A stretch of DNA of 60,112 bases, from the NCBI GenBank assembly GCA_029210875.1, contig JARGFJ010000009.1, forward strand, positions 1-60,112, read 5' to 3'. The DNA is from Gammaproteobacteria bacterium (lineage in GTDB: Bacteria > Pseudomonadota > Gammaproteobacteria > Nitrosococcales > Methylophagaceae). Below the pieces are notes generated by a model. That model saw only the letters and a program-made list of their open reading frames with translations. It was not told the origin of the DNA and searched no databases. Both the position numbers and the translations under genes were made by a program. This document shows, piece after piece, positions 32,690-35,192 of the stretch; position 1 is the stretch's first letter; each line of letters starts with the position of its first letter.

Positions 32690-32896
32690 ATGAATAATGA
32701 GATTGTTGATTTACAGATGAAGTTATCTTTTCAGGAAGGGTTGCTCGATGACTTGAATCAAGTGATCATCGATCAACAACAGCAAATCTCACGATTGGAA
32801 TTAGCGATTGAAACGATCAAAGTACAGATGCGAACAATGCAAACCTCAATCCACCAGGAAAACGGTCAACAACATGAAATTCCACCACATTATTGA
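32690..32896 (+). CDS. slyX: SlyX family protein
   Basis: A 68-aa coiled-coil protein with the SlyX pattern: QMKLSFQEGLLDDLN at the start, a heptad-rich middle and the typical PPHY end. Function in the family is unknown. The downstream methyltransferase starts 11 bp after the stop. Confidence 0.9.
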   Translation: MNNEIVDLQMKLSFQEGLLDDLNQVIIDQQQQISRLELAIETIKVQMRTMQTSIHQENGQQHEIPPHY

Positions 32897-32907
32897 GAGG
32901 GGAAATC

Positions 32908-33555
32908 ATGGCTGACTCCTTGATATTGCAAGATTGTCTTTTGTGTGAGTTTCCATCTAATCATTACATGACTATTGGAAATCGCGTCTATTACAAATGC
33001 ACTAATTGTTCTAGCATTTTTCTAACAAAAGAATGTCGATTAGATGAGACTAGTGAGAAAGACAGATATTTAGAACATAACAATGATGTATATGATGAGC
33101 GATATCGCGAGTTTGTCTCTCCTATTACAAACTACATTATGAAAAAATATACAAGAGCATCTAATGGTCTTGATTATGGCTCAGGAACAGGTCCTGTGAT
33201 CTCTACTGTTTTGAGCGAGAATGACTATTCTGTGAGTCAGTATGACCCGTATTTTTCACCTGATAAATTAGTTCTTGAAAATAACTATAATTACATCGTA
33301 TGTTGTGAGGTGATTGAACATTTTTATCAGCCAAAAAATGAATTCACTAATTTGAGAAATATACTCAAAAGTAATGGAGAATTAATTTGCAAAACAGAAA
33401 TATATAATGAGAGCATAGAATTCAGTCAATGGTATTATAAAAACGATCCCACACATGTATTTTTCTATTCGGAAGATACATTTGAATGGATTAAAAACAA
33501 TATTGGATTTAGCCAGCTAACAATCGAAGGGCGAGTTGTTATTTTTAAAAAATAA
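32908..33555 (+). CDS. Class I SAM methyltransferase with N-terminal zinc-ribbon-like cysteines
   Basis: A 215-aa protein with an N-terminal two-pair cysteine region (CLLC then CTNC) and a methyltransferase core (LDYGSGTGPVIS as motif I, then YNYIVCCEVIEHF), resembling the Methyltransf_23 type. ATG 32908 has GAGAGGGG just upstream; the open frame from 32893 overlaps slyX and lacks a ribosome site. The coding sequence is more AT-rich than its neighbours, and codon style looks different (many AAT, TAT and ATA), suggesting later acquisition. Substrate unknown. Confidence 0.75.
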   Translation: MADSLILQDCLLCEFPSNHYMTIGNRVYYKCTNCSSIFLTKECRLDETSEKDRYLEHNNDVYDERYREFVSPITNYIMKKYTRASNGLDYGSGTGPVISTVLSENDYSVSQYDPYFSPDKLVLENNYNYIVCCEVIEHFYQPKNEFTNLRNILKSNGELICKTEIYNESIEFSQWYYKNDPTHVFFYSEDTFEWIKNNIGFSQLTIEGRVVIFKK

Positions 33556-33772
33556 AGCATCGAACAGATGCAGATGGTAGATCTAAATCAAACGAAGCAA
33601 AATCGGTGAACTGTGATTCTCATAATCCACGGTTTTGTAATAGATTCATTGATTCAGTAGAGAAACTGGTTGGTGAGATCATTTATATTCCTTTGTTTTA
33701 AGTGGCCCACCGACCTAAAGCAATATTGATTCCTGCATAATTCATAGACGTAAACGTTGTATTTGTTTTTCC

Positions 33773-33891
33773 TACTTAACCTGAATCCTGGATAAGGGAC
33801 CGTGCAGGACACTATTTCTCTAATGTAATCAAACTGTTAAGCTCGCTAGGGCGGCTGAGTGCTGTTTCTTATCCTGGATTCAGGTTACTTA
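33773..33891. mobile_element. MITE-like element with 18-bp TIRs and 6-bp target duplication
   Basis: A 107-bp element (33779-33885) bounded by ACCTGAATCCTGGATAAG at the left and its inverse at the right (17 of 18 matching). It is flanked by identical TACTTA direct repeats at 33773-33778 and 33886-33891. It has no coding capacity. Terminal inverted repeats plus a target duplication is the hallmark of a transposon-derived MITE mobilised in trans by a full-length element elsewhere. The parent family is not identified. Confidence 0.8.
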
Positions 33892-33910
33892 TGTTTCAAG
33901 TAATAGAAAA

Positions 33911-33946
33911 ATCTTTGCCGCTTATGGCATATAGGGCGGCAAAGAT
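33911..33946. terminator. Orphan hairpin (possible terminator, minus strand)
   Basis: ATCTTTGCCGC at 33911-33921 pairs perfectly with 33936-33946 around a 14-nt loop. On the minus strand the stem is followed by TTTTTC, giving a terminator-like shape, but the nearest minus gene already has a hairpin at 34058-34094. It may be a leftover from a lost gene. Confidence 0.4.
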
Positions 33947-34057
33947 GCGCTATCTATTTTCAATTCATCTAAAGTTGCTGTTAACTCAATAGAGAGATCC
34001 TGGTTGTCCAACAGTTTTTCTTGGTAATCACATCAAAACCAGACATTGATTACGGAT

Positions 34058-34094
34058 AAGACTGATAGCCGCAATGTGTGAAGCTATCAGTCTT
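34058..34094 (-). terminator. Hairpin downstream of the Old Yellow Enzyme gene
   Basis: AAGACTGATAGC (34058-34069) is the perfect inverse of 34083-34094, a 12-bp stem with a 13-nt loop, beginning 7 nt beyond the stop of the minus-strand gene. The T-tract after it is weak, so it may be a 3'-end stabiliser rather than a full intrinsic terminator. Confidence 0.55.
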
Positions 34095-34100
34095 GTCAAT

Positions 34101-35192
34101 TTAAGCTTGCAACGCAGGATAATCAGTATAACCCTTGGCATCACCACCATAGAAGGTATCGAAGTCAGGTGTGTTTAATTCTGCTCCTTTTTGAATGCGC
34201 GCAGGTAGATCAGGGTTGGCGATAAAAGGCACGCCAAACGCTATAAAATCTGACTCATTCGCAGCCAGGCTTTGTTCAGCTGTTTCACCGCTATAACCAC
34301 CATTGGCGATATAAGCGCCATTAAAGAGGTTACGCAAATGTACAAAGTCAAAGTCGTTGTTATCAGCTTCTTTAGAAATGCCAAAGCGTTCAACAAGATG
34401 GATATAAGCTAAATTGAACGGGTTTAACTGTTCAATTAGGTAGCTATATAAGCCAAAAGGATCGGTTTCAGTCATGGCATTAAATGTGCCGGTAGGTGAT
34501 AGACGAATTCCGACACGATCACCACCCCAAACATCAGTCACTGCTTGTGTGACTTCCAAAACAATTCGTACTCGATTTTCAACACTGCCACCGTAACGAT
34601 CTGTACGTTTATTGGTGCCATCTTTTAGAAATTGTTCCAATAAATAACCATTAGCGGCATGAATTTCAACACCATCAAAGCCTGCTTGTTTGGCATTTAA
34701 TGCGGCTTGGCGATATTGGTCCACAATACCTGAAATTTCACCTGTTTCCAAAGCGCGAGGTGTTTCAAAGTCGAGCATACCTGTTTCTGTAAATGCTTGT
34801 CCTTCGGTTACGGGTATAGCGGAGGGTGCAACAGGGAGTTCGCCATTAGCTTGTAAACTTGAATGTGATACGCGACCAACATGCCATAACTGCATAAACA
34901 CATGCCCCCCTTGCCGATGAATGGCATCGGTTATTTTTTTCCAGCCTGCAATTTGTTCTGCTGAGTGAATACCTGGGGTATAAGCATAACCTTTACCTTG
35001 GGGAGAAATTTGCGTTGCTTCAGTAATAATCAACGCTGCTGATGCGCGTTGTTGGTAATACTCAACATTGAGATCATTGGGAATATCGCCAGGCTGCGAT
35101 GAACGTGAGCGGGTGAGGGGTGCCATTACAATACGATGAGGTAAGGTTAAAGCGCCCAAATTTTTTTCACTAAAAAGTAAGTCAAAAGCCAT
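34101..35192 (-). CDS. nemA: Alkene reductase, Old Yellow Enzyme family
   Basis: FMN-dependent NAD(P)H oxidoreductase reducing activated double bonds, quinones and nitro compounds. TIM-barrel landmarks: MAPLTRSRS near the N-terminus, the substrate-binding HAANGYLLEQFL (H-x-x-N), the TDRYGG loop and YIANGGYSGETA at the FMN phosphate site. 363 aa, against 365 in E. coli NemA. Divergent from an HxlR-type regulator 164 bp away, a common pairing for electrophile-inducible reductases. The symbol is assigned by family resemblance. Confidence 0.9.
   Translation of the reverse strand: MAFDLLFSEKNLGALTLPHRIVMAPLTRSRSSQPGDIPNDLNVEYYQQRASAALIITEATQISPQGKGYAYTPGIHSAEQIAGWKKITDAIHRQGGHVFMQLWHVGRVSHSSLQANGELPVAPSAIPVTEGQAFTETGMLDFETPRALETGEISGIVDQYRQAALNAKQAGFDGVEIHAANGYLLEQFLKDGTNKRTDRYGGSVENRVRIVLEVTQAVTDVWGGDRVGIRLSPTGTFNAMTETDPFGLYSYLIEQLNPFNLAYIHLVERFGISKEADNNDFDFVHLRNLFNGAYIANGGYSGETAEQSLAANESDFIAFGVPFIANPDLPARIQKGAELNTPDFDTFYGGDAKGYTDYPALQA

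Follow-up and report, generated by a model that had tools for sequence, protein, structure and literature searches.

A MITE of a Methylophagaceae genome with ends and target duplications of the IS982 type

Short mobile elements without a transposase of their own depend on enzymes supplied in trans. Here, we describe a MITE of 107 bp at 33779–33885 of the window (the whole stretch of 60,112 nucleotides analyzed, which is contig 93 of a draft genome of 2.44 Mb) and, comparing sequences, we infer that it was very probably mobilized in trans by an IS982-family transposase, mostly at TANNTA with a 6-bp duplication, and that the shorter forms of its family arose by internal deletion. The element is a MITE in every respect: it has terminal inverted repeats (TIRs) and a target duplication, it is short and lacks a transposase gene, and its copies are dispersed. 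Repeated 6-bp duplications, one clean empty site at a sister copy and IS982 elements with matching ends and target complete the picture.

The structure proposed by the first-pass annotation, a 107-bp MITE with 18-bp TIRs (one mismatch) and a 6-bp TACTTA duplication, is borne out. The element, with both TIRs included, is bounded by two copies of TACTTA, the left one at 33773–33778, which fits the TANNTA of the sister copies, and the right one, read from the sequence, at 33886–33891. A TIR search places the 18-bp left TIR, ACCTGAATCCTGGATAAG, at 33779–33796 on the plus strand and the right TIR, ACCTGAATCCAGGATAAG when read on the minus strand and with one mismatch, at 33868–33885. The 71 bp between them (33797–33867) are non-coding and correspond, in the alignment, to the 195-bp form of the family minus 88 bp from the middle of the element. 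With up to three mismatches allowed, the TIR occurs at two sites in the window, both of them the ends of the element, where 0.01 would be expected. Because the element lies between the 3′ ends of two convergent genes, a methyltransferase gene (32893–33555, plus strand) and an OYE-type flavin oxidoreductase gene (34101–35192, minus strand), neither neighbor is broken. Among frames of at least 50 aa, the sole one that touches the element encodes 52 aa (33654–33812, minus strand), and there is no transposase gene.

As the first-pass annotation had anticipated, further copies are present in the host genome: a search with the 119 bp of element and duplications gave 24 match rows, which come down to 19 places once rows of the same element are merged. 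Both ends are kept at 12 of the 19 places, and the remaining seven are partial or have one end eroded. The family consists mainly of 195-, 107- and 89-bp forms. Eleven of the 12 two-ended copies were aligned (195, 195, 194, 182, 107, 107, 107, 103, 100, 89 and 89 bp), C8:2311 being omitted with a right end under the script threshold. The alignment shows that the 107- and 89-bp forms each lack one internal block of the 195-bp form, and the deleted blocks, judged by eye, have TCA or CTG at both edges, consistent with a loss between short repeats; both forms look like internal deletions of the 195-bp form between these repeats. Genome-wide, the TIR pattern with up to three mismatches has 21 forward and 24 reverse matches, 45 in all including the ends of other families, and the reversed-pattern control has 0 forward and 1 reverse. 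At two sites of this genome (L060, 2344–2395, on C7 and L066, 3023–3074, on C55) lie palindromes of about 40 bp made of element ends alone, set tip to tip, which are possibly end-only remnants.

The flanks of the copies carry the signature of insertion. Eleven copies are flanked on either side by sequence of their contig (C8:2311 counted, C52 left out as it runs to the contig end); their flanks agree at 6/6 positions in seven, at 5/6 in two, and at 4/6 and 3/6 in one each. The seven exact duplications are TACTTA, TGATTA, TATTTA, TAACTA, TAGTTA, TAACTA and TAAATA, and TANNTA fits all except TGATTA. Three sister copies, on C22, C36 and C8, were each compared with the same-genus genomes G004, G002 and G024 in search of empty sites. 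For the copy at C22:102 kb, of the 195-bp form, contig C12 of G004 has a clean empty site in which the flanks, 94% and 93% identical on the two sides, are joined through a single TAGTTA; this sets the borders of the element as ACC...GGT and the length of the duplication as 6 bp. The C36 copy is absent from G004, but a 4-base gap at the target disqualifies this locus as a clean empty site, and the C8 copy matched the three genomes in pieces, with no readable empty site. Two arrangements were seen alongside. On C22 of the host genome (L010, 1366–1371), a copy has its target at the stop of an open frame, which reads ...LSLLKE followed by the TAG of TAGTTA, and the stop codon is retained through the 6-bp duplication. 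On contig C92 of G004 (L079, 1501–1754), a MITE of the window's family adjoins one of the ACCTCAGTTC family with a single TATTTA between them, common to both, as if one had inserted into the target duplication of the other.

How old is the copy in the window? The first-pass annotation had read the intact duplication and the non-coding interior as signs of fairly recent movement and had pointed to an empty TACTTA site in relatives as a check. That view is unsupported: set against the majority consensus of the family, the window copy deviates at 11.2% of its positions (12 of 107), more than any other of the 11 aligned copies, with the C52 copy close behind (11/100) and the lowest copy at 1.5%, and a search of 28 same-genus genomes (query 32893–35192, up to 10 first-look candidates scored per genome) revealed no empty site where the window copy is inserted, the clean site being that of the C22 sister copy. 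Six bases can escape mutation, which makes an intact duplication of this length a poor guide to age, and we argue that the window copy is probably a rather old member of its family. Both flanks of its site are present in G004, 95% and 93% identical, on different contigs and with other neighbors; 33591–34055 thus falls on a rearranged junction, which leaves no empty site to read. Apart from G004, no relative gave match rows on both sides of the insertion point. Nearby, 33595–33699 shares 82% identity with part of G026:C179 where, judged by eye, a minus-strand gene seems to begin, and this segment may be a gene remnant at the point of rearrangement.

Which transposase could have moved the family? 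A PF01609 search of 29 same-genus genomes listed 27 matches in nine genomes. Among these, a TIR of the MITE type was found at five loci (L116, L118, L121, L133 and L135), all of them IS982 places, and at none of the remaining 22. One of the five, an element in G008, measures 989 bp, ends in ACCTGAATCCTGTTTAAG and ACCTCAGATCTGTTTAAG, has TAATTA on both sides and matches the window TIR at 16 of 18 positions of its end; its transposase of 294 aa scores 273.5 bits with the NCBIfam IS982 model (cut-off 130) and carries Pfam DDE_Tnp_1_3. Scanning named genomes with this transposase kept 80 loci, from which 23 near-full-length ones were picked for an end search. An end finder without preference for ACC gave ends of the MITE type in register at 13 of the 23, shifted or half-shifted ends at four and no such ends at six. 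The duplications of IS982 elements usually range from about 3 to 9 bp; here an exact 6-bp TANNTA duplication was present at seven of the 23 loci (L172, L178, L179, L180, L181, L186 and L187), and at L184 and L201 the 6-bp duplications, also exact, follow another pattern. The IS982 of Vibrio salinus, for instance, has the left end ACCTCAGCTCTGGATAAG and the duplication TAAATA, and the same scheme recurs in IS982 elements of an Alteromonadaceae bacterium (TAAGTA), Colwellia (TAACTA) and Pseudoalteromonas (TAAATA).

The closest ends belong to L204, an IS982 locus in a Methylococcaceae MAG, which shares CTGGATAAG in the left end with both the Vibrio salinus element and the MITE. At its left end, 21/21 positions are the same as in the right end of one 195-bp copy; for the window copy, 19/21 agree with the right end and 17/18 with the left TIR. 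The locus has its flaws: the flanks agree at 4/6 positions (AAGTTA, TAATTA), the best unbiased register is shifted by two bases, and the transposase reads in two frames, so that L204 is broken or wrongly assembled. Beyond the ends, the interiors of the window copy and of one 195-bp copy showed no similarity to seven IS982 elements and two pieces from the host genome, save for matches of 11 and 16 bases (E 0.38 and 0.73), of which the 11-base one (E 0.38) is that of the window copy.

In the host genome itself, IS982 is represented by remnants and by pieces cut at contig ends. The piece on C33 scores 187.4 bits with the NCBIfam IS982 model and terminates in ACCTGAGATCGGTTTAAG beside TAATTA; the TIRs of these IS982 sequences, such as ACCTCAGCTCGGGATAAG, differ from the MITE TIR at several positions. 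No intact IS982 with the exact MITE TIR was found in this draft genome, and among the TIR-motif matches listed (those of the same-genus genomes other than G013 and G005, and part of those of the host genome) no inverted TIR pair was seen 0.8–2.5 kb apart. As IS982 occurs here as contig-end pieces and remnants, gaps in the assembly may conceal an intact copy. The search for an insertion sequence with the same TIR, suggested in the first-pass annotation, was answered in part: in the genus and elsewhere there are IS982 elements whose ends are of the same kind, whereas no intact one with the exact TIR was recovered from the host genome. The broader claim that the MITE was moved by an element elsewhere in the genome is supported by the further copies, the repeated 6-bp duplications, the empty site of the sister copy and the IS982 elements whose TIRs and targets are of the same type.

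These data also bear on other readings of the element. That the inverted and direct repeats are a chance arrangement is vanishingly improbable: when we required an 18-bp inverted repeat with at most one mismatch, an element length of 60–400 and an exact flanking 6-bp direct repeat, the real window gave this one place and 20 dinucleotide shuffles of the window gave none (0/20), and both the 19 places of the family and the 21 + 24 TIR matches against 0 + 1 in the reversed control speak against it too. The element could instead be a non-mobile intergenic hairpin, a terminator or a REP/ERIC-like RNA element kept for a cellular function, as its position between convergent genes and its strong predicted fold (−41.2 kcal/mol) might suggest. 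Such a fold is, however, expected of any element with these TIRs, insertion is evident from the exact 6-bp duplications of 7/11 copies and from the precise empty site, and Rfam has no family at its cut-off over 33500–34110 (best score 16.6 bits against 100), making this explanation highly unlikely.

A more serious contender is that the same MITE was moved by a transposase of some family other than IS982. It draws on the host genome, from which no intact IS982 bearing the exact 18-bp TIR was recovered, and on the six of 12 genomes with the TIR motif in which no IS982 was detected; these six, together with the two of 11 copies whose duplications match poorly, are among the points that count against IS982 as the mover. 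Yet IS982 elements share the TIR layout and the TANNTA duplication, one of them with 21/21 terminal bases, the IS982 remnants of the host genome end in such TIRs, and all five TIR-bearing loci among the 27 PF01609 loci are IS982 places, and we consider a mover from another family improbable. Under mobilization by IS982, full IS982 elements that the genome has, or once had, would supply a DDE transposase in trans, which would recognize the 18–21-bp ends, excise or copy the element and insert it mostly at TANNTA, duplicating 6 bp; the 195-bp form would have given rise by internal deletion to the 107-bp form seen in the window and to the 89-bp form, which would have spread in turn.

Across the genus, the motif TANNTAACCTNANNHCTGGATAAG (one mismatch) occurs in 12 of 29 genomes and the reversed pattern in none, and IS982 protein matches, remnants included, occur in 7 of 29. 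The motif is present in six of the seven genomes with IS982 and in six of the 22 without (Fisher p = 0.011, ignoring shared descent). Long matches to the window's family, searched in 59 genomes, are confined to the host genome and G004; in G018 and G023, the ends alone match. The genus has further MITE-like elements (for example L092, L089, L075 and L099) with the same TIR scheme and TANNTA target as the window's family, and their interiors have no similarity to it beyond the ends. A second such family of about 120–232 bp (L092, L089, L101, L106 and L114, in G004, G028, G016, G013 and G023, respectively) has an interior common to five species, and L075 and L102 (in G018 and G027) have a third interior between the same ends, L102 being 72.5% identical, from end to end, to its reverse complement. 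It is conceivable, though we regard it as rather doubtful, that IS982 sustains an exceptional variety of MITEs in this genus, with at least three and perhaps four unrelated interiors sharing the same ends and TANNTA, some found across species and persisting where no IS982 was detected. If true, MITE lineages would outlive their movers, and new interiors would repeatedly be captured between IS982 ends.

MITEs derived from IS982 are already in print, and the element is an ordinary new example. MITECca01 of the endosymbiont Cardinium cOegib derives from ISCca4 (IS982 family), is about 240 bp long and has 169 copies (PMC9769881); like the window's family, it is short and non-coding, has IS982-type ends and many copies, and is presumed to be moved by IS982. 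The two differ in size and number, the window's family being mostly 89–195 bp at 19 places, and in the sequence shared with IS982: MITECca01 keeps short stretches of its parent beside the TIR (PMC9769881), whereas the window's family shares only its ends (18–21 bp) with the IS982 elements compared. Compared with IS982 insertion sequences themselves (NCBIfam NF033520), the ends, roughly ACCY.A...TAAG, and the exact 6-bp TANNTA duplication, at 7/23 loci, are alike, whereas those elements are about 920–1046 bp long and encode a transposase of about 290 aa (294 aa in L116) and the MITE has no coding capacity. Among the papers listed in literature searches on MITEs, IS982 and Methylophaga insertion sequences, no description of the window's family was seen.

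In conclusion, the comparison identifies IS982 as the likely mover of this MITE and TANNTA, with a duplication of 6 bp, as the rule for its targets. It leaves the understanding of MITEs unchanged; the IS982-linked MITEs, which have been little described, gain a gammaproteobacterial member, and the genus is one that would allow several families of this kind to be compared.
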